From Clostridia bacterium (GTDB lineage: Bacteria; Bacillota; Clostridia; Oscillospirales; CAG-272): 51,327 nucleotides of DNA. The position numbers and the translations under genes were made by a program. Below are positions 3,213-51,125 of the stretch, piece by piece (positions within the stretch are counted from its first letter, which is position 1; each line of letters starts with the position of its first letter). Location: positions 1 to 51,327 of the forward strand of contig JAFTOI010000024.1 in assembly GCA_017463865.1 (NCBI GenBank), read 5' to 3'. The notes below the pieces were generated by a model. The model was not told the origin of the DNA, ran no database searches, and saw nothing but the letters and a program-made list of their open reading frames with translations.

Positions 3213-3283
3213 GAAATCAGCTCCTTTCTTGGTTTTTTCGAAGCAATTGGGATAGGCCGGATGCGGCATCTTCCTGTTCAGTG

Positions 3284-3356
3284 GCGGACACGGCACGCCG
3301 TGTCCCTACGATTTGAGATGCGCACTTGGTGTAGGGACACGGCGTGCCGTGTCCGC
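3284..3356. repeat. 26-bp perfect inverted repeat (REP-like)
   Basis: Arms at 3284-3309 and 3331-3356 are exact reverse complements around a 21-base spacer. Each arm also holds its own near-palindrome (ACACGGC-AC-GCCGTGT) and ends in CCCTAC/GTAGGG. It lies in the 240-base gap between the HTH gene and the aspS promoter. I see no gene in that gap. Confidence 0.85.
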
Positions 3357-3454
3357 ATCCAAACAATAAGATGTCGTGTCATCATGATACACCTTTTTTG
3401 CCCCCATGTCACAAAATATCACAAAACGTAATAAAATTTCTGTCGTGCCGCCTC

Positions 3455-13420: not shown

Positions 13421-13590
13421 TGGATGACGCTTGCAGGAAAGAGCATTTTGCTGCCGAAGGAGTAACACTCTCAGGTGTCCGTAAGGATGGGGACTGTAAG
13501 CTGACAAAACTTTGGAGAAGCTCATTCGATTGAGTGCCGAAGGTGCAAGGCGTTTACCGCTAATCTCTCAGGCAAAAGGACAAAGTTATG
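13421..13590 (+). promoter_or_regulatory. Tandem glycine riboswitch
   Basis: Two consecutive aptamers carry the signature boxes GCCGAAGG (13453-13460 and 13536-13543) and CTCTCAGG (13468-13475 and 13565-13572). The second ends in the typical GGCAAAAGGACAAAG. The pair lies between promoter and terminator hairpin upstream of a sodium:alanine/glycine symporter, so glycine level probably sets transporter expression. Confidence 0.93.
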
Positions 13591-13637
13591 CGACTGTAGG
13601 GTTGATTATCTTTATCTGATTGTTTTTATTGATACGG

Positions 13638-15963: not shown

Positions 15964-15974
15964 ATATCCACAAC

Positions 15975-16069
15975 ACAGAGTAGGCGAATGTGCGTCAAGT
16001 GCTGCGCGGACGGGGAGTTGCCGGGCAGACGAAGGGGAAACCCGCGGTACATGCGCCGCATCCCGCTGT
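15975..16069 (+). promoter_or_regulatory. Tetrahydrofolate (THF) riboswitch
   Basis: ACAGAGTAG at the 5' end, GCGTCAAGTG, GACGAAGGGG and CCCGCGGTACATG, then CGCATCC and the closing CTGT, follow the order and wording of the folT-type THF aptamer (GGAGAGUAGAUG...CGUUAAGUG...ACGAAG...GCGGUGAAUC...GCAUCCGCU). The ends ACAG/CTGT pair. It stands directly upstream of a folate-type ECF transporter gene, the classic target. Confidence 0.85.
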
Positions 16070-16117
16070 ATCATACGGAAACAGTATGGTGAAGCGATTC
16101 CGAAAAGCAGAAGAAAT

Positions 16118-16977: not shown

Positions 16978-17369
16978 GGCATTGACCTAAACTTTGGCAA
17001 CAGCGGGGTTGGTTTGTGCTGATCTTTTCGCCCTCCCGGGCGAGTCGGGGGAGAAACCATCTCAGACGCCGAAGTTTTCTCCCCCCGACGCCCCCCTCAT
17101 CCTTGGCTGCGCCGAAGTTCCTGCAATAGATGTAAGTTGCCCCGCAACATTCGTTGCGGGGCATATTATTATGTAGAAGCTTCGGCGAAGCCAAGGAAGG
17201 TGGGAGTCCAGAGACGGCGGCAGAAGTCGGCAAAGCCGACTTCGTGACTTGGCAAAGCCAAGTCCGGAAACATTCGGCGTCTGAGATGGTTCCCGCCCTC
17301 TGGTCGCGCGGGAGCGCGAAAAGATCAGCACAAACCAATCCCGCTGTTGCCAAACCCGAAGCTAATGCC
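16978..17369. mobile_element. 392-bp composite element with long terminal inverted repeats (MITE-like)
   Basis: The ends are GGCATT (16978-16983) and AATGCC (17364-17369). Arm 16993-17030 matches the complement of 17317-17354 at 37 of 38 bases; 17056-17073 matches 17273-17290 exactly; 17101-17117 matches 17180-17196 at 16 of 17. The centre is a perfect 10-bp hairpin (TGCCCCGCAA, 17138-17147, with 17154-17163). No transposase is encoded. Each arm is one copy of a repeat that also occurs singly at 27400-27487 and 51041-51125. The right arm contains an extra segment (about 17201-17264) with two small hairpins. Confidence 0.8.
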
Positions 17370-27175: not shown

Positions 27176-27328
27176 ATGAAGAGAATTCAGACCATCAATA
27201 CCCGCGACCTCGCGAAGAGCGTTAAGAACGGCGGCTGCGGCGAGTGCCAGACCTCCTGCCAGTCGGCTTGCAAGACCTCCTGCGGTGTTGCCAATCAGAA
27301 GTGCGAAAACAAGAACGCCAAGAAATAA
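27176..27328 (+). CDS. scfA: SCIFF ranthipeptide precursor (six Cys in forty-five residues)
   Basis: 50 residues. The leader MKRIQTINTRDLAKSVKNGG is followed by six cysteines at 21, 24, 28, 32, 36 and 43, the defining pattern of SCIFF peptides that occur nearly universally in Clostridia. The partner radical SAM enzyme, encoded 200 bases downstream, ties Cys sulfur to the side chain of neighbouring residues, typically Thr in the TSC units (here QTSC and KTSC). The product's role is unknown; a housekeeping or signalling function has been suggested because of its conservation. Ribosome site AGAGGG; strong promoter before and terminator after, so the peptide is probably made in excess over the enzyme. 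Confidence 0.95.
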   Translation: MKRIQTINTRDLAKSVKNGGCGECQTSCQSACKTSCGVANQKCENKNAKK

Positions 27329-27340
27329 GTGTTGGCAAAG

Positions 27341-27368
27341 AAATACCGCCCCCTCGGGCGGTATTTTT
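27341..27368 (+). terminator. Terminator between precursor and maturase
   Basis: AAATACCGCCC (27341-27351), loop CCTC, GGGCGGTATTT (27356-27366) with T run. It would let only part of the transcripts reach the maturase gene. Confidence 0.85.
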
Positions 27369-27399
27369 CTGCTTAGTCTGACGGCGAGGCGGCGCCCCA

Positions 27400-27487
27400 G
27401 CCAAGGAAGGTGGGGCGTCGGGGCGGGAAACTTCGGCGTCTGAGATGGGTCCCGCCCCGACTCGCGCGGGAGCGCGAAATGATCAGC
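27400..27487. repeat. Single copy of the TIR-element repeat (copy C)
   Basis: It shows AGCCAAGGAAGGTGGG, the hairpin GGGCGGGAAAC/GGTCCCGCCC around the loop TTCGGCGTCTGAGATG, the small hairpin TCGCGC-GGGA-GCGCGA (27462-27477) and GATCAGC. Orientation equals the right arm of the element at 16978-17369. It fills the gap between the SCIFF terminator and the maturase ribosome site. Confidence 0.85.
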
Positions 27488-27528: not shown

Positions 27529-28974
27529 ATGATCCACCAGTATAAACTCAACGACTACAACATCGTCCTTGACGTCAACAGCGGCTCTGTCCACGTTGTC
27601 GACGAGGTCGCCTATGACATCATCGCCGCCTACGAGACCACGCCCCGCGCAGAGATCGTTGCGCAGATGATGGCGAAATACGGCGACCGTGAAGACGTCA
27701 ACAAAGCCGAGATCGAGCAGTGCATCGACGATGTCGAGGCCCTGCGGGACGCCGGAAAGCTCTTCGCCGAAGACAAGTTCCGCGACGTCGCCGTTAATTT
27801 CAAGGCCAACAACACCTGCATCAAGGCACTCTGCCTCCACATCGCGCACACCTGCAACCTCAACTGCTCCTACTGCTTTGCCAGCCAGGGCAAGTACCAC
27901 GGCGACCGGGCCCTGATGTCCTTTGAGACCGGCAAGCGTGCCCTCGACTTCCTCGTCGAAAACTCGGAAGGCCGCCGCAACCTCGAGGTCGATTTCTTCG
28001 GCGGCGAGCCGCTGATGAACTGGGAGGTGGTCAAGCAGCTGGTCGCCTATGCTCGCTCGATTGAGGAGGCCGCCGGCAAGAACTTCCGCTTTACCCTCAC
28101 CACCAACGGCGTGCTGGTCGATGATGATGTCATCGACTTCTGCAACCGCGAGATGCACAACGTCGTCCTCTCGCTCGACGGCCGCCGCGAGGTGCATGAC
28201 CGCTTCCGCGTCGACTACGCGGGCAAGGGCAGCTACGACAACATCGTGCCCAAGTTCAAACGCTTTGTCGAGAGCCGCGGCGGGCAGGGTTACTACATGC
28301 GCGGCACCTACACCCACCACAACACCGATTTCACCAACGATATTTTCCACATGGCCGACCTCGGCTTCGACCAGCTCAGCATGGAGCCTGTCGTCTGTGC
28401 GCCCGACGACCCCAGCGCGCTGACTGAGGAAGACCTGCCCATCCTTTTCGAGCAGTACGAGCTCCTTGCCCGCGAGATGATCCGCCGCAAAAAGGAAGGG
28501 AAGGGCTTCACCTTCTACCACTACATGATCGACCTCACCCACGGCCCCTGCATCTATAAGCGGGTCGCCGGCTGCGGCTCGGGCAGCGAGTATTTCGCCG
28601 TCACCCCGTGGGGCGAGCTCTACCCCTGCCACCAGTTCGTCGGCGATGAGCGCTACAGCATGGGCAACATCTGGGACGGTGTCAAGAACGAGGCTCTGCG
28701 CGACGAGTTCCGCAAGTGCAACGTCTATTCCAAGCCCGAGTGCGCCGATTGCTGGGCGCGCCTGTGGTGCGCGGGCGGTTGTGCGGCCAATGCTTACCAT
28801 GCCACCGGCTCGATCACCGGTACATACGCCTACGGCTGCGAGTTGTTCAAGAAGCGCATGGAGTGCGCTATCATGATCCAGGTTGCCGAAGCCGAGGAGG
28901 GCGGCGCGCTGAGCGACGGCGCGGCGTGCGGGGACGGATGTTCCGATTGCGGCGATTGTACGGATTGTCATTGA
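27529..28974 (+). CDS. scfB: SCIFF peptide maturase, radical SAM/SPASM
   Basis: 481 residues. The N-terminal ~85 residues form a precursor-binding domain (RRE-like). The radical SAM motif CxxxCxxC lies at Cys109, 113 and 116 (HTCNLNCSYCF), and a SPASM region binding two further iron-sulfur clusters includes CGSGSEYFAVTPWGELYPCHQF and PECADCWARLWCAGGCAANAY. The very end is Cys-rich (CGDGCSDCGDCTDCH). It forms thioether crosslinks in the upstream peptide. The start follows CGGAG at a slightly long spacing. The dispersed repeat copy C separates it from the precursor gene, whereas this gap is often short in relatives. The gene ends at a shared terminator. Confidence 0.94.
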   Translation: MIHQYKLNDYNIVLDVNSGSVHVVDEVAYDIIAAYETTPRAEIVAQMMAKYGDREDVNKAEIEQCIDDVEALRDAGKLFAEDKFRDVAVNFKANNTCIKALCLHIAHTCNLNCSYCFASQGKYHGDRALMSFETGKRALDFLVENSEGRRNLEVDFFGGEPLMNWEVVKQLVAYARSIEEAAGKNFRFTLTTNGVLVDDDVIDFCNREMHNVVLSLDGRREVHDRFRVDYAGKGSYDNIVPKFKRFVESRGGQGYYMRGTYTHHNTDFTNDIFHMADLGFDQLSMEPVVCAPDDPSALTEEDLPILFEQYELLAREMIRRKKEGKGFTFYHYMIDLTHGPCIYKRVAGCGSGSEYFAVTPWGELYPCHQFVGDERYSMGNIWDGVKNEALRDEFRKCNVYSKPECADCWARLWCAGGCAANAYHATGSITGTYAYGCELFKKRMECAIMIQVAEAEEGGALSDGAACGDGCSDCGDCTDCH

Positions 28975-35858: not shown

Positions 35859-35902
35859 AAACGGTCTCCCGTGAAAAGTTGAAATTGGGTATATCTCATT
35901 TT

Positions 35903-35931
35903 ATTATATCATTTTTCGCCCGTCTGTGCAA
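35903..35931 (-). promoter_or_regulatory. Promoter of the yhaO operon
   Basis: On the minus strand TTGCAC (35926-35931), 17 bases, TATAAT (35903-35908). Confidence 0.85.
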
Positions 35932-35971
35932 CTGTTTTTCGCATGGAAACGGATAGAATTTTACATTCCGT

Positions 35972-36087
35972 CAAGGCTCCCTCTCCGAGGGAGCTGTCGC
36001 CGCAGGCGACTGAGGGAGTTCCTCTGGCGGGTGACTCCTTCCGTCACGGCTTGCGCCTTGCCACCTCCCTCGGGGAGGGAGGCTGAG
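35972..36087. repeat. Multi-hairpin intergenic repeat
   Basis: Outer arms AAGGCTCCCTC and GGGAGGGAGGCT enclose small hairpins CTCCCTC/GAGGGAG, GTCGCC-GCA-GGCGAC, GTGAC/GTCAC and CCTCCCTC/GAGGGAGG. I recall a similar run of CTCCCTC and GAGGGAG hairpins from other gut Clostridia. No reading frame is supported in it. It lies between the divergent yhaO and vanY promoters. Confidence 0.75.
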
Positions 36088-36173: not shown

Positions 36174-36959
36174 ATGAAGCCGAACAAACTTGCCCTCATC
36201 CTTGCGCTGGCGCTCACCGCCTGCGCCTCCCCCGCCGCACCGGCCATGACCGGTGCGGAAACCGTCACCGATGTGCCCCCCGTCACCGCCGTGCCGCTCG
36301 CACCGGTGACACAGCCCGAGACGACGCTCGCCCCTGAGACAACCACAGCGCCCGAGACGACTGCCGCTCCCGTCACGACTGCTGCACCCGAAACCACCGC
36401 CGCGCCGACCCACACCATCGAGGTCATCGACGGCGTCACCTACATCGACGGGGTGCTGATCGTCAACAAAACCTACGCCCTGCCCGCCGACTACCCGCAG
36501 AAATCGCTGACCACCGAAGCGCTGAACGCCTACTGGACGATGAAGCAGGCGGCCGCGGCCGACGGGCTGACCATCAAGTCGATCAGCGACTACCGCTCCT
36601 ACTACGACCAGCGGTATATCTACAACAACTACGTCGCCCGCGACGGGCAGGCGGCCGCTGACCGCTACTCGGCCCGCCCCGGCCACTCGGAGCACCAGTC
36701 GGGGCTGGCCATCGACATCAACTCGACTGCCTTCGACTTTGACACCACCCCCGAGGGACAATGGCTGGCGACCCATTGCGCCGAGTATGGATTTGTTATC
36801 CGCTACCCGAAGGATAAGGAGGCCATCACCGGCTACATGTACGAGCCGTGGCATGTGCGGTATGTGGGGAAGGATTTGGCCGCAAAGCTGTATTTGGGAG
36901 ATGGAGAATTCACCACCCTTGAGGAATATTTCGGCATCACCTCGGTGTATGCCGATTAG
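36174..36959 (+). CDS. VanY-type D-Ala-D-Ala carboxypeptidase lipoprotein
   Basis: 261 residues. The N-terminal signal ends in LALTAC with lipid-modified Cys17. A Thr/Pro/Ala/Glu-rich linker (about 25-78, repeating units like APETT) lifts the catalytic domain off the membrane. The M15B zinc motifs are present: GHSEHQSGLAIDI with His174 and Asp181, and EPWHVRYVG with Glu224 and His227. It trims the terminal D-Ala of peptidoglycan stems outside the cell. An AAGGAAGCCGT site precedes the ATG. It has its own promoter and a shared terminator at the 3' end. No vancomycin-resistance genes surround it, so a housekeeping role is more likely. Confidence 0.92.
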   Translation: MKPNKLALILALALTACASPAAPAMTGAETVTDVPPVTAVPLAPVTQPETTLAPETTTAPETTAAPVTTAAPETTAAPTHTIEVIDGVTYIDGVLIVNKTYALPADYPQKSLTTEALNAYWTMKQAAAADGLTIKSISDYRSYYDQRYIYNNYVARDGQAAADRYSARPGHSEHQSGLAIDINSTAFDFDTTPEGQWLATHCAEYGFVIRYPKDKEAITGYMYEPWHVRYVGKDLAAKLYLGDGEFTTLEEYFGITSVYAD

Positions 36960-36985
36960 AAAAAGGAGCCTTGCGGCTCCTTTTT
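36960..36985. terminator. Bidirectional terminator
   Basis: AAAAAGGAGCC (36960-36970), loop TTGC, GGCTCCTTTTT (36975-36985). It serves the VanY gene and the convergent anti-sigma gene. Confidence 0.88.
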
Positions 36986-36988
36986 GCG

Positions 36989-38401
36989 TTATTTGAGGGT
37001 GATAGTGCCGAAGAATGCCTGCGGGTCGCGTGGGTCTCCGACGTTTTCGGGGGTATAATTGTAGCTGAGGCGATCGAGAATGACGACCAGCTTGTCGCCG
37101 GACTTGGCTTCTTCTGTTACCCACAGGCCGTCCGTCATGCTGTCCACGCCCTTGACCATATATTCAAGCGTCCCGGTTTCGCGGTTGTAGGTGACATTGC
37201 GCGGCCAGATCTCGTGGCTGTTGTTTTCGCCATTCAGATAGGTATAATCGGTCGGCCCCATGCTGTAGGATTGGTGAATATAGCCTTGAATACTGCTGAT
37301 GAGGGGAGAACCGGTGTTGTTCTCGGTCTCGACGGTGAACTGCAGGCCGTTCTCGCCGTAGTCCACCCGAGTCAGGCGGCAGACAATGCCGCCGGCATCC
37401 AGCAGAATTTCGTTGCAGGCATAGCCCTCGCCCTTGGCGGGGACGGTGACGGTTACACGGGGATGGCCCTCGGTGTGGATGTCGTAGGTATGAATGATGT
37501 TGAGCCGATAGGGTGCGATGGCCGTGACGCCCTTGCCGTAACCGGCCTTTGTGATCTCAATGGCGGTATTTTGGATGGTTTCGGTGTTCTGGATGGGGAT
37601 ATCGCCGAACGCCTTCGCGACTGTGCCGTCATCACAGGTGACGAGGAAGCTGCCGTAGGCGTAGGTGTTGCGGCTGCCGGTGCCGATCTCGGCCGAGCGG
37701 GGATCGACCAGCTCACCGGCAAAGACATTTTCTGTGCCCGATACCGGGACGAGGGACAGGCCAACATCGGGGGCGATACGGATGCCCCGAAGATAGCCGT
37801 ACTGCGTTTCGTTGATTGCCTTCAGCTGCACGGTGGTGGTGTTGCCCTCGCTGTCGCGCAGGGTGGGCGCGGCGGTGAAGGGGACATTTTTATAGGTGTA
37901 GCTCGAGAAGCCACTGGAGCTCAGGTGGGAATTGCCCCGTCTGCACGCCACCCCGTCGATCAGGACGTCAAACTCACTCAGCTCCTTCGGCGGGATGCCC
38001 TGCATAGCCTGTTCGGGATCCTGCTCGACCTCCTCGCCGCGCCAGACCCAGACGGTGAGGTTGTACCCCTCGTCCCCCTCGCTGAGCACGACCGCGTCGA
38101 TCTTCGCCCCGCCGAGGGTGATCTCATCATAGCATGCCCACACCTGCGGCGCGGCGATGCTGTCGTCATCGATCAGCCCCACGCCCGGAGCAAAGTAGAA
38201 CCGGCTCGCCGCCGTGAACCCGACGATGCACACCGCCGCCGCGATCAACGCCGCCGCGATCAACGCCGCCGCGATCAACGCCGCGGCCAGCAGCACGCGG
38301 GGGCGCGGGCTGCGCCGCTTTGACGGCGCGGTTGCCTCGGCTTCTTCAATAAACCGCACGTCGATGCCGCCGATGGCATCGGCCAGCTTGTTTTCTTTCA
38401 T
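36989..38401 (-). CDS. ECF module 1: membrane anti-sigma-like protein
   Basis: 470 residues. The cytoplasmic N-terminus (LADAIGGIDVRFIEEAEA) is followed by a single membrane helix at about 36-62 containing three perfect copies of LIAAA, then a large outer domain of beta type (YFAPGVGLIDDD...). It starts inside the stop of the sigma gene (ATGA overlap), the usual pairing of an ECF factor with its regulator. Its outer domain is clearly paralogous to that of module 2 (FYFAPGVGLIDDDSIAAPQVWACYDE versus YFAPGVGIVDEESAAFPQVWACYDE-type wording). It probably holds the sigma factor at the membrane until an outside signal arrives. The signal is unknown. Confidence 0.8.
   Translation of the reverse strand: MKENKLADAIGGIDVRFIEEAEATAPSKRRSPRPRVLLAAALIAAALIAAALIAAAVCIVGFTAASRFYFAPGVGLIDDDSIAAPQVWACYDEITLGGAKIDAVVLSEGDEGYNLTVWVWRGEEVEQDPEQAMQGIPPKELSEFDVLIDGVACRRGNSHLSSSGFSSYTYKNVPFTAAPTLRDSEGNTTTVQLKAINETQYGYLRGIRIAPDVGLSLVPVSGTENVFAGELVDPRSAEIGTGSRNTYAYGSFLVTCDDGTVAKAFGDIPIQNTETIQNTAIEITKAGYGKGVTAIAPYRLNIIHTYDIHTEGHPRVTVTVPAKGEGYACNEILLDAGGIVCRLTRVDYGENGLQFTVETENNTGSPLISSIQGYIHQSYSMGPTDYTYLNGENNSHEIWPRNVTYNRETGTLEYMVKGVDSMTDGLWVTEEAKSGDKLVVILDRLSYNYTPENVGDPRDPQAFFGTITLK
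38235..38279. repeat. Three tandem copies of a 15-bp unit inside a coding region
   Basis: GCCGCCGCGATCAAC is repeated exactly at 38235-38249, 38250-38264 and 38265-38279, and a fourth copy begins. On the coding strand it adds LIAAA units to the membrane helix of the module 1 anti-sigma protein. Copy number could vary by slippage without shifting the frame. Confidence 0.95.
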
Positions 38402-38949
38402 AGCAAATTTCTCCTTTCCAGATACTCCCTCAGCTTGCGCCGCACCCGGTGCAGGCGCACTCGTACCGTCCCCGCGCGCAGATCCATCCGCGCCGCAATG
38501 GCGGCGATCGGCTCGAGGTGCCAGTAGCGCCGGACGAACATCACCCGCGCGTCGCGGTCGAGCGTGTCGAGAAAAGCGTTGACGGCGGCTGTCAGTTCGG
38601 CGGTCTCGAGGCGGGCAGAAACCTCGTCGCCGCCGGGCAGCAGCTCGTCCAGCTCGTCGATGGGCGTCACAGCGGCGCGGCGTCGTTCAGCATTGCGGGC
38701 GCGCCAGCGGCTGATGGCAATGCGGCGGGTGATCATCCCCGCGTAGGCAGCAAGCGACGGCGGCTCGGCGGGCGGGATGCTCTCCCACACCCGCAGCCAG
38801 GTGTCGTTGACGCACTCCTCGGCGTCCTCATCTGAGCCGAGAATGTTGCGTGCAATGGCGCGGCAGAGCCGTCCGCACCGCGCGTCGAGCGCGGCCAGCG
38901 CAGTCTCGTCCCGCGCTAACAGCGCGTCCATGATCTCGCGGTCATCCAT
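38398..38949 (-). CDS. ECF module 1: RNA polymerase sigma factor
   Basis: 183 residues from ATG 38949 behind AAAGGAGGGACGCGG; a longer frame to 38979 lacks a ribosome site. Region 2 contains LGSDEDAEECVNDTWLRVWESIPP and region 4 ends in LEPIAAIAARMDLRAGTVRVRLHRVRRKLREYL, the standard ECF helix-turn-helix. Its last base-triplet overlaps the anti-sigma start (ATGA). The candidate promoter 39 bases upstream resembles those of the other two modules, which suggests that it drives its own gene. Confidence 0.92.
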   Translation of the reverse strand: MDDREIMDALLARDETALAALDARCGRLCRAIARNILGSDEDAEECVNDTWLRVWESIPPAEPPSLAAYAGMITRRIAISRWRARNAERRRAAVTPIDELDELLPGGDEVSARLETAELTAAVNAFLDTLDRDARVMFVRRYWHLEPIAAIAARMDLRAGTVRVRLHRVRRKLREYLERRNLL

Positions 38950-48560: not shown

Positions 48561-50390
48561 TTATCGGAATTGGTCGTATGCTGTGACGTGCTCGCCCCAG
48601 ATGTGGAGCGAACCGTATTCGTAATCGAGCGGATAGAGATAGACCGTCGTTGACGCCTTCGCGCCGTCCGGATAGTGAACAGACAATGTGGAGCCGGTCG
48701 AATCAATATCTGTGATTCCTTCACCAACGACGTAACGGCGGCCATCGGTAATGAGCGATGCTGTTCCGTCGGGGGCGAGAAGCACAAGGAAGGGCTGACC
48801 GCTGGCGTAGCCGTATTCAATCTTACGGCAGTCTTGGTGCCCGAGCAGCTCATCCCGCGCGCCGTCGCAGCGGACGCGGTGCACTTCACCTGTCTCGGTG
48901 GCATAGTAGATGTACAGCCCGGAGGTGTTGATGGCAGTCACAGGCGTATCGCTCAGCTGTACGACCGTCCCGTCCCAGGCGCGGCGGTATGCACCATTCG
49001 CTGTCGCGTAGACAACGCTCGCCGCGTCAAGGTTGAAGCCGCGCACGCTCTCGGCGACAATCTCGCCGTTCCGCGCCAGCCGCCCGTCGGCGTCGAGTGT
49101 CCAGCGCACGCCGAGGCGCAGCTGGAAGCGTACATAGGGGCCGGGATCGATGATCTCCTGTGCGGTAATGAAATCGGTCATGTCGACTCCTTTGTTGCAG
49201 AGGCTGTAGAAGCTCCCGATGCCGGGGCAGGCGTAGGTGATGCGTGCGATCGCGCCGGCAGTGGTGCGGTAATAGGTGTCAAGCCCCTCAATGCGGATGT
49301 CGCCCGCCGCGTCATCGGTAAGCAGGACGCGCCGATCGCTGCCATGGAAGCTGCCGAGGTAGAGGCGGCTCCCCTCGAGCCAGACGGTGAAATCTTCATA
49401 TTCACCCGTATATTCGCCCATCAGCCCGATGTTATTGGCGGAGGTGTTGCCGTAATCGAAGTCGTAGTCGCTGTTGTAGTCGCCGCCGGGGTAGAGCAGG
49501 GCGGCGCATACGGCGTCGTAGAAGCCGTCGGGCAGCCGGACATAGCCCAGCCAGCCGCCGATTTGGTCGTTGTATACCGTGATGCCCGTAGTGGTGCCGT
49601 CGGACAGCGCGAAATGGAGACTGATCTGGCGCTCATCGTCGGTGCGGGCGCTTTTTCTTTCATCGGTGCTGATGAATGTTGCTCCTTCGACGAACCATTG
49701 CAGAAGGTCGGCGACCTTGGCAGGATCATCGATCTCACCAACCGGGACACCGTTATTGCCGACAAGCTCGATCGACTTGATTTGGTCGACAGCCGGGAAG
49801 AAGTCGCTGACCGACCGGCCGACCAGTGCATCGGCAGCGTTGAGCAGGCCGGTGCGCGAGAAATAGTAGAACTTGCCGTTTGCGCCGTACCCGCAGATGC
49901 GCCACTCGGGTGAGTAGCCTTCGCAGGCGAAAATCGTACCGCCCACCGGGATGACGTTGGATGCAGTCAGGGTTATGTCATCCCAGCGTGGGTCGTCTTT
50001 CGGCACATTTGTTTCGTTCATACAGCTGACGGTGTCATCAAACTCTACCACCCCCAGCGCTTCGCCCGGCTGCATCGAGCCCACATTATGCATCATTTCG
50101 TAGTAGACGCCGTTCCAGCGTACTTGCGCTGCCTGGTCGGCAATCGGGCCGGAGTCGATGACCGGTGCAGTTGACGCAGTCACCGTGCTTGTTTCGACCG
50201 GCGGTGTCACGTCGCGGCGCTGCATCATCGCCCCGCCGACGGCCAGCACGGCGAGCACGGCCGCGACGGCGGCCATGTACACGATCCTGCGTCCCGCCCG
50301 CCTCGGCGGCTGTTCCGCTTCCTCCACCAGCGCGGCGTCGATGCCGCCCATGACGTCGAGGGCCCACAGGGCGCGTTCGTCCTTCGTCAT
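48561..50390 (-). CDS. ECF module 3: membrane anti-sigma-like protein with propeller-type outer domain
   Basis: 609 residues. The N-terminus ALDVMGGIDAALVEEAEQPP shares the motif of modules 1 and 2. One membrane helix (about 33-54, IVYMAAVAAVLAVLAVGGAMM) follows. The long outer part differs from the other modules: strand repeats such as YIYYATETGEVHRVRCDG and VVYATANGAYRRAWDG look like the blades of a DUF5050-type beta-propeller. It starts within the stop of the sigma gene (ATGA). A role as a transmembrane regulator of that sigma factor is inferred from the arrangement. Confidence 0.78.
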   Translation of the reverse strand: MTKDERALWALDVMGGIDAALVEEAEQPPRRAGRRIVYMAAVAAVLAVLAVGGAMMQRRDVTPPVETSTVTASTAPVIDSGPIADQAAQVRWNGVYYEMMHNVGSMQPGEALGVVEFDDTVSCMNETNVPKDDPRWDDITLTASNVIPVGGTIFACEGYSPEWRICGYGANGKFYYFSRTGLLNAADALVGRSVSDFFPAVDQIKSIELVGNNGVPVGEIDDPAKVADLLQWFVEGATFISTDERKSARTDDERQISLHFALSDGTTTGITVYNDQIGGWLGYVRLPDGFYDAVCAALLYPGGDYNSDYDFDYGNTSANNIGLMGEYTGEYEDFTVWLEGSRLYLGSFHGSDRRVLLTDDAAGDIRIEGLDTYYRTTAGAIARITYACPGIGSFYSLCNKGVDMTDFITAQEIIDPGPYVRFQLRLGVRWTLDADGRLARNGEIVAESVRGFNLDAASVVYATANGAYRRAWDGTVVQLSDTPVTAINTSGLYIYYATETGEVHRVRCDGARDELLGHQDCRKIEYGYASGQPFLVLLAPDGTASLITDGRRYVVGEGITDIDSTGSTLSVHYPDGAKASTTVYLYPLDYEYGSLHIWGEHVTAYDQFR

Positions 50391-50947
50391 ATCGTGAATC
50401 CCTCCTTCTCCAGGTGCGTCCGCAGCCGCCCGCGGAGGCGGTGGAGCGTCGATTTCACCCGGCTCTCGCGCATCCCGTACCGCTTTGCCAGCGCCGCGAT
50501 GGGCTCGAGGTTCCAGTAGCGCCGCACGAAGAGGGTGCGCTCAGCGGGCGACAGCCCGCGCAGGAAAGCCGAGATGGCGTCGGCCAGTGCGGCGTTGTCC
50601 AGCGTCTGCTCGATGCTCTCCGGCGCGGGCAGGCAGGCGGCCAGCTCGTCGCCCAGCTCGACGATCTCGCCCGCGCGCTTGGCGGTGCGCCGGGCGCGGA
50701 CGCTGTCGAGCGCTGCGTGGCGGGTGAGACGCGCGAGGAAGGCCCAGAAGTAGTCCCGCGGCTCGTGGGGCGGGATGGAGCGCCAGGCGGCGAGGTAGGT
50801 GTCGTTTTCGCACTCCTCGGCGGCGGGGGCATCGGCGGTGATGGTGAGGGCAAGGGCGCGGAGGTGCGCGCCGTATTTGTCGGCGGTGGCGGCGATGGCC
50901 GCCTCGTCGCGGGTGAGGTAGAGGTCGACGATGCGGGCGTCGTCCAT
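50387..50947 (-). CDS. ECF module 3: RNA polymerase sigma factor
   Basis: 186 residues. Region 2: APAAEECENDTYLAAWRSIPPHEPRDYFWAFLARL; region 4: LEPIAALAKRYGMRESRVKSTLHRLRGRLRTHL. It is more distant from modules 1 and 2 than they are from each other. The ATG at 50947 follows AAAGGAGGCGCGCAC. The stop overlaps the anti-sigma start. A promoter-like element with the same 16-base spacer lies 33 bases upstream. Confidence 0.92.
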   Translation of the reverse strand: MDDARIVDLYLTRDEAAIAATADKYGAHLRALALTITADAPAAEECENDTYLAAWRSIPPHEPRDYFWAFLARLTRHAALDSVRARRTAKRAGEIVELGDELAACLPAPESIEQTLDNAALADAISAFLRGLSPAERTLFVRRYWNLEPIAALAKRYGMRESRVKSTLHRLRGRLRTHLEKEGFTI

Positions 50948-51007: not shown

Positions 51008-51040
51008 GCTTGAATGAAAATTTTTCGTTTCTGCAAACTT

Positions 51041-51125
51041 TTTTCGCGCTCCCGCGCGAGGAGGGGGCGGGAACCATCTCAAACGCCGAAGTTTCCCGCC
51101 CCCTCCACCCCCGCCCTCCTTGGCT
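51041..51125. repeat. Single copy of the TIR-element repeat (copy D)
   Basis: TCGCGC-TCCC-GCGCGA (51044-51059), then GGGGGCGGGAAC, the loop CATCTCAAACGCCGAA, GTTTCCCGCCCCC and CCTCCTTGGCTA. Orientation equals the left arm of the element at 16978-17369. It lies between the CinA/PncC gene end and the ECF module 3 promoter. Confidence 0.85.

Follow-up and report, generated by a model that had tools for sequence, protein, structure and literature searches.

Our analysis identifies a structured repeat unit of ~106 bp that is, in our assessment, probably a portable hairpin module of small non-autonomous mobile elements seated at terminators. The unit is present in a 51,327-nt contig (hereinafter, the window), one of the 48 contigs of a 1.9-Mb, 67%-complete assembly (G000, the own genome), in which an initial annotation had described four copies of a dispersed repeat with two hairpins. 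All four copies exist, their reported coordinates being off by at most a few tens of bases, but copies 1 and 2 turn out to be the halves of one inverted-repeat element rather than separate copies, and copy 2 has no ordinary 5′ stem arm. The reading of the repeat as a structured family likewise stands with respect to the paired stems and the many intergenic copies, whereas the suggested connection to TnpA-REP is not supported, and the mobility of the unit, the unity of the first pair and the terminator-seated carriers described below had been missed.

The unit begins with AGCCAAGGA and consists of a long stem (5′ arm rich in purines, 3′ arm rich in pyrimidines), a near-constant apical segment, AAC-TTCGGCGTYTGAGATG-GTT, a second hairpin, TCGCGC-GGGA-GCGCGA or its CG-swapped form, next to which comes AAAAG, and an A-rich tail of ~20 nt. 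Three subtypes can be distinguished: the 35 aligned copies of type A, 12 copies of type B, which are preceded by one more hairpin, and type C, with hairpins inserted in the 5′ arm. In the four window copies, the apical TTCGGCGTYTGAGATG is identical, as claimed for the loop, and the matched stem swaps, along with the swap in hairpin 2, are seen just as they were quoted. A BLAST search of the own genome with copy 3 as the query gave 56 matches at E ≤ 10, some of them fragments of one copy. We built a covariance model (R1) from the 35 aligned type A copies, all of them from the own genome; at E ≤ 1 it detected 95 matches, and analysis was restricted to the 89 with E < 0.001. These numbers greatly exceed chance expectation, and the further copies anticipated in the genome are there. 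The 89 matches collapse into 68 sites, of which 47 have one unit and 21 have two; all two-unit sites are head-to-head, with 46–106 bp between the model matches, and none is tandem or tail-to-tail. Sites lie almost always outside called genes, in 55 of 57 cases in the own genome and in 72 of 73 at foreign loci; these counts are approximate given that the genes were called with a home-made codon-usage caller.

The pairing of the stem is maintained by compensatory change, in agreement with the covariation initially claimed from the window copies. In the 35 type A copies, 96.9% of the 704 cells pair and 12 of the 21 pairs are changed on both sides; double changes occupy 102 cells, compared with a shuffled mean of 29.2 (none of 500 shuffles as high), and sliding the partner by 1–3 columns lowers pairing to 34.5–53.1%. 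The same holds for 84 matches (83 distinct) on named public contigs, where 95.1% of cells pair and 388 double changes stand against 112 in shuffles; the constancy of the apical segment in that alignment (A4), which was drawn from an exact apical-motif search and fitted to the R1 structure, is by construction. In a less biased set of 60 copies, for which up to 6 mismatches were allowed, the apical segment is TTCGGCGTTTGAGATG in 31 copies and its C form in 10. This segment can fold into a stem of 5 bp that is capped by a CGU loop and has an AU bulge; two G-U pairs are kept in it in 57/60 and 59/60 copies, and the terminal pair is G-U in 36 copies, G-C in 16, C-G in 4 (mostly from near-identical elements of a single genome, G201) and unpaired in 4. 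The apical segment was also considered as a short open reading frame (AAC TTC GGC GTY TGA), a candidate we rejected: length differences among the 5′ arms do not keep to multiples of three, and any one upstream start position is common to at most 6 of 55 copies. No Rfam family matches the unit at gathering score, in line with the original remark that no named family fits; in the window, only a THF riboswitch, a glycine riboswitch and tRNA were detected, and the 15 matches obtained for 8 unit loci at E ≤ 1 are all under the gathering score. Nor was an earlier description of the repeat found in the PMC literature, the only literature searched.

Table 1. Repeat units and adjoining features in the window; the strand of a unit is that on which it reads 5′ AGCCAAGG
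Feature	Position	Strand	Description
Composite inverted-repeat element	16978..17369		Two units, (−) then (+), on either side of a central terminator-like hairpin, enclosed by outer arms
Unit copy 1, type A	17018..17108	−	AGCCAAGG at 17108-17101, then the long stem with its constant apical segment, then hairpin 2
Central terminator-like hairpin	17139..17162		GCCCCGCAACATTCGTTGCGGGGC; from sequence
Unit copy 2, type C	17189..17329	+	5′ arm split by the hairpins AAGTCGGCAAAGCCGACTT and GACTTGGCAAAGCCAAGTC (17223-17264)
Neighbour of copy 3	27176-27328		Six-cysteine ranthipeptide SCIFF (scfA)
Terminator-like hairpin	27344..27369	+	3′ of scfA, directly upstream of copy 3; from sequence; kept in G001-G004
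Unit copy 3, solo, type A	27399..27487	+	Between scfA terminator and SCIFF maturase gene; covariance-model E 2.2e-14
Neighbour of copy 3	27529-28974		SCIFF peptide maturase
Unit copy 4, solo, type A	51034..51125	−	Top covariance-model match of the genome, E 1.3e-18

The composite element of the window (Table 1) lies downstream of a folT-family gene and is bounded by 66-nt outer arms (16978-17043 and 17304-17369) with 85% complementarity. Copy 1, which carries the CGCCC-GGGA-GGGCG version of hairpin 2, matches the model at 17026-17108 (E 2.7e-16). Copy 2 matches at 17189-17321 (E 4.2e-7); its stem re-closes further out (RNA fold, z −4.78), and inserts resembling that of copy 2 are found in units on contigs C8, C26 and C43. 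Hairpins resembling the central one occupy the same position in own-genome pairs on C4, C8, C11, C23, C26, C33, C34 (36844), C43 and C44. Copy 4 shares its strand with an ECF sigma factor gene (50387-50947, −; sigma-70 ECF family) and lies ~90 bp upstream of its start (95 bp between the model match and the gene). Measured against composition, the fold of copy 1 is unremarkable (z −1.35), and those of the other three copies have z values of −3.4 to −4.8. The THF riboswitch (15974-16070) is located upstream of the folT-family gene, and the glycine riboswitch at 13502-13593.

As judged from comparison of sister species, the unit is a mobile module, with four sites differing between them. The window pair is missing from the orthologous gap in all four relatives compared (G001–G004), whose gap sequences differ mutually. 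Copy 3 is degenerate in G001 and missing in G002, G003 and G004. On contig C34, none of the three relatives compared (G002, G003 and G004) has the pair at 27233, none of the four has the pair at 36844, and at the place of the single site at 38885, G001 has only unrelated sequence. At all these sites, the compared gaps are too dissimilar to place the insertion point to the base.

The unit is carried by two kinds of miniature elements located at intrinsic terminators. Carrier A, found in the genus of the window and in genus g58, contains head-to-head unit pairs around a bidirectional terminator-like hairpin, and some of these pairs extend outward to the ends (G)CAATGNCATNAACTTAAG. With up to 2 mismatches, this end occurs 10 times in the own genome, 55 times in G201, once in G001 and not at all in G003, with 0 matches for the reversed control. 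Thirteen complete carrier A elements were recovered, 190–418 bp long with 18-bp ends and too short for a transposase gene; eight contain one or two units, those with two having the terminator-like hairpin between them, whereas five contain none, so that the unit is not needed for all carrier A elements. Carrier A elements of G201 that lack the unit (L289, L290, L292, L293 and L294) contain other hairpins, some with a hairpin-2-like end, which amounts to a swap of the internal module. A 10–12-bp target duplication flanks 11 of the 13 elements, compared with 1 of 156 cross-paired flanks. When the empty sites of these 11 elements are joined, seven form strong hairpins (at most 4.2% of random 40-mers, drawn from the same loci and hence from sequence that contains the elements, are as stable) and four (L182, L290, L291 and L292) do not; in the seven, the duplication lies within the loop of an A-stem-T terminator or directly at it. 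Carrier A thus has the features of bacterial MITEs, namely, a size below 500 bp, terminal inverted repeats, the lack of a transposase gene and a target duplication. Its ends, CAATGTCATTAACTTAAG, and its 10–12-bp duplications fit the IS4 subgroup, for which Table 1 of PMC2266710 gives the ends -AATR--------WTW---- and a 10–13-bp duplication. The terminal signature and the duplications of ~10 bp are shared with that subgroup as represented there (PMC2266710). Carrier A differs from it in its miniature size, in the lack of a transposase gene, in its usual location within terminator loops and in its content of unit pairs.

The composite element of the window has the same architecture as the elements on C11, C33, C23 and C44 that keep a recognisable end, and we read it, from this resemblance, as an old carrier A copy with degenerate ends; no target duplication is recognisable at it.

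Carrier B belongs to the AT-rich genera g69 and g50, in which an element of ~140 bp, CAGACTGAAGACAAAA...TTTTGTCTACACTTTG, has the unit at its core. Twenty rows were chosen by end motifs, of which two (L101 and L137) were misparsed; in the 18 valid rows, the element is 137–146 bp long, too short for a transposase, and has the imperfect ends CARASTGWAGAYAAA. Flanks sharing at least 12 nt are found in 11 of these 18 rows (two of which, L372 and L373, have identical flanks in two species), compared with 2 of 380 in the cross-pair control. The shared flank is a whole, locus-specific stem-loop (for example, of 22 nt in L193 and L372, 27 nt in L377 and 33 nt in L104), so the duplicated length follows the hairpin. 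A hairpin with a stem of at least 8 lies within 1 nt of the element on both sides in 12 of the 18 rows and 6 fail this test; as a control, 360 of 3600 random windows have a hairpin within 3 nt of one given edge. At two loci (L108 and L378) the flanking hairpins differ, and at two others (L189 and L081) the stems agree and the loops differ. The one gap compared for carrier B, that of G124 orthologous to the L120 site, contains no element and a single terminator, the sequence of which is different, so that it is not an exact empty site. Three carrier B elements fold strongly as DNA (z −3.9 to −6.6, for stretches with some flanking sequence and, in the case of L104, without the right end), with both ends paired only in L193. 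In size, ends and duplication, carrier B also conforms to bacterial MITEs, and it combines these traits with stem-loop insertion of the IS1182/IS1272 type.

These two carriers are best viewed next to what has been described for IS1272. IS1272/TnSha1, of the IS1182 family, likewise targets stem-loops, often terminators, with no primary-sequence consensus according to PMC4923244 and PMC5678879, and deletions at terminator stem-loops are reported in PMC4923244. In the model presented in PMC5678879, an extruded cruciform is attacked at its feet by the ends of the transposon; the legend to Figure 13 of that article lists three outcomes: replacement of the stem-loop, duplication of the stem-loop at both ends and duplication of the loop at both ends. 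The first, replacement, is the one that IS1272 shows (PMC5678879); by comparison with this model, carrier B looks like the second outcome and carrier A like the third. The differences are that IS1272 is reported there to delete or replace the stem-loop with no duplication, whereas carrier B doubles it and carrier A doubles 10–12 bp around the loop, and that no IS1182-type transposase with matching ends was found in the assemblies searched for DDE transposases (the own genome, G001 and G201). IS1634/IS1549 resemble carrier B in making target duplications of variable length; PMC2266710 describes these duplications as long and variable, with no known mechanism, and reports a range of 8–514 bp with no stated link to hairpins, whereas the carrier B duplication follows the hairpin. 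The BOX, RUP and SPRITE repeats of Streptococcus pneumoniae are, like the unit, small, modular and transposase-less, with predicted RNA structure and past mobility (PMC3049150); they differ, going by that description, in that the stem of our unit covaries around a near-constant apex and the carriers target terminator hairpins.

Under the reading that we favour, the hairpin unit would help a short element to fold, bringing its ends together for a trans-acting DDE transposase, which may attack extruded stem-loops, at the loop in the case of carrier A and at the 5′ feet in the case of carrier B; the near-constant apical segment might be read by a protein. We propose that insertions are tolerated since the flanking genes keep a transcription stop, supplied with the element in the case of carrier A and by duplication of the old terminator in the case of carrier B. 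Bolder, and in our opinion rather unlikely, is the notion that a single module was taken up by two unrelated classes of mobile elements with a shared cruciform-attack chemistry, the apical segment being the determinant of homing to extruded terminators and both neighbouring genes being left with a working stop.

The solo units, which account for 47 of the 68 own-genome sites, bear on the main alternative. They could be decayed halves of carrier A, with hairpins eroding slowly and no separate solo mobile form, a scenario that we regard as less likely than not and as less likely than the portable module. It would explain why all 21 pairs have one geometry, why a solo site (C44:10710) retains a carrier A end while several pairs have none, and why L308 shows a half bereft of its stem-loop. 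Random decay should, however, produce ragged edges, whereas 39 of the 47 solo units, those that can be anchored at the 5′ edge on AGCCAAGGA, lose conservation abruptly upstream of it: no upstream position exceeds 0.6 bits, the constancy of the nine anchor bases themselves being by construction. On the 3′ side, similarity fades ~20–25 nt past hairpin 2. A flank repeat longer than 10 nt was seen in none of 71 own-genome units, a length limit below which a duplication would escape. The flanks inspected contain no inverted ends, so that solo units lack this hallmark of MITEs, and the 25 solo units tested yielded no hairpin target (mean duplex energy −7.3, against −7.9 in the control).

Somewhat less probable than decay of carrier A, and short of an even chance, is that the unit is a cis-acting RNA element, such as an mRNA stabiliser or a processing or protein-binding site, which travels with mobile elements and has been retained by genes, the stem and apical segment being maintained by selection on the transcript and not on transposition. 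The retained apical G-U pairs and the AU bulge look RNA-like. Moreover, in tandem gaps, solo units are preferentially oriented with the genes, 22 versus 8 (two-sided p 0.016) in the own genome and 15 versus 7 (p 0.13) at foreign loci, for a pooled 37 of 52 (p 0.003). This bias is modest, though, comes from a home-made gene caller and could mirror a gene strand bias, as is described for the pneumococcal repeats in PMC3049150. The lack of units at orthologous gaps of sister species is a further argument against selection on the transcript. Whether the hairpin serves in transposition or as RNA, its role is a matter of inference.

With regard to the mobilising protein, the initial annotation had pointed to a TnpA-REP-like transposase in the same genomes; this expectation fails in 7 of the 12 unit-bearing genomes, in which PF01797 has no match, among them the own genome and the 99%-complete G113. 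The idea that the unit is a REP/BIME-like repeat moved by a RAYT (Y1) transposase accordingly strikes us as very improbable. The resemblance is real, in that the units are extragenic, palindromic, numerous and paired head-to-head, and PF01797 is found in 5 of the 12 genomes, but REP/BIME systems come with a RAYT, and none was found in the own genome or G113. In addition, both carriers have target duplications and, to our knowledge, Y1 elements make none. Least credible of all are ordinary terminators or attenuators devoid of mobility, which would account for GC-rich hairpins in intergenic gaps but not for the missing T-run after the hairpins in unit orientation or for a presence that varies between sister species.

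A DDE-type partner, such as a related IS with the YREK transposase of the IS4 subgroup, was sought as well. In three incomplete assemblies, PF01609 has one match in the own genome (L366) and none in G001 or G201; the carrier B genomes were searched for transposases with PF01797 only. L366 was rejected as the carrier transposase: it is of the IS5 family by NCBIfam, and no ends matching the carriers were seen near it. It also hits the IS1182 model, with 133.5 bits, under the cut-off of 270. Longer elements do not qualify as autonomous copies either: the genes of L140 and L112, in which the units are separated by 2.5–3.2 kb, are ordinary ones, and so are those of L358 and L359 in G201. Neither an autonomous copy nor a transposase whose ends match those of the carriers turned up in the searched, incomplete assemblies. 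Repeats often drop out of metagenome-assembled genomes (MAGs), and given the incompleteness of these assemblies, the missing autonomous element may still exist.

A DNA-level search found copies in 5 of 39 genomes, including the own genome, all five being of the genus of the window. The covariance-model search of related genomes that had been recommended extends this range: R1 has matches in 54 of the 295 genomes and 17 of the 71 genera of the family at E ≤ 0.01, and the family of repeats is present in 32 of the 295 genomes at E ≤ 1e-5. The exact apical motif occurs in at least 102 stretches of named genome contigs; among the 80 motif matches listed, all come from MAGs titled Clostridia or Oscillospiraceae, many of them named for herbivore gut samples. 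In an order-wide search with a broader model (R2), 15 of 394 genomes gave matches at E ≤ 1e-4. Among the loci inspected, from 12 of these 15 genomes and, for all but L354, at the match itself, one from another family (L344, in G529) has the motif and one from the own family (L345, in G041) has a close variant, whereas nine of the twelve are hairpins with other loops. Weak matches, also some of those behind the 54 of 295, may therefore be false. A phage or plasmid origin was considered and rejected: searched with one consensus query, 50,697 phage and 72,556 plasmid records gave no match at E ≤ 0.01. One stretch filed as viral (L342, IMGVR_UViG_3300032167_001085) contains two units and is probably host DNA.

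Carriers A and B provide natural, countable cases of the duplication of a loop and of a whole stem-loop, which, in PMC5678879, are drawn only as alternatives for IS1272. Because such outcomes can be counted, the model of structure-directed transposition becomes testable from genomes. The carriers also suggest a low-cost route by which small elements enter terminators, and the unit adds a covarying hairpin family, abundant in gut Clostridia, that has no Rfam match at gathering score.

Several other repeats were encountered in the course of this analysis. The window contains a palindromic GGCTCCCTCTCCGAGGGAGCTGTCGCCGCAGGCGACTGAGGGAG at 35976-36020, with a second partial match at 37996 (−). We take GGCTCCCTCTCCGAGGGAGCTGTCGCCGCAGGCGACTGAGGGAG to be a repeat that is common among these bacteria. 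Positions 3264-3376 of the window hold an inverted repeat of 46 nt, with GGACACGGCGTGCCGTGTCC-like cores and arms 21 nt apart. A second dispersed repeat, TCCTAAGGGACTTTTCTCGAAATGTCCCTTAGGCGGGGTTTGGGGCAGAGCCCC, at L309:10385-10462 (G000:C34 ~35884-35961), has many matches in all four genus relatives. The C34 pair at 36844-37119 adjoins GTTTCACGTGAAAC palindromes (region ~36820-37160), also present in the orthologous gaps of the sister species, which presumably are parS-like. Finally, eight of the loci examined, from other genomes (L347–L353 and L356), are G-rich hairpins of the form GGGGARAAAAC...GTTTTCTCCCC with unrelated loops, possibly analogous repeat families.
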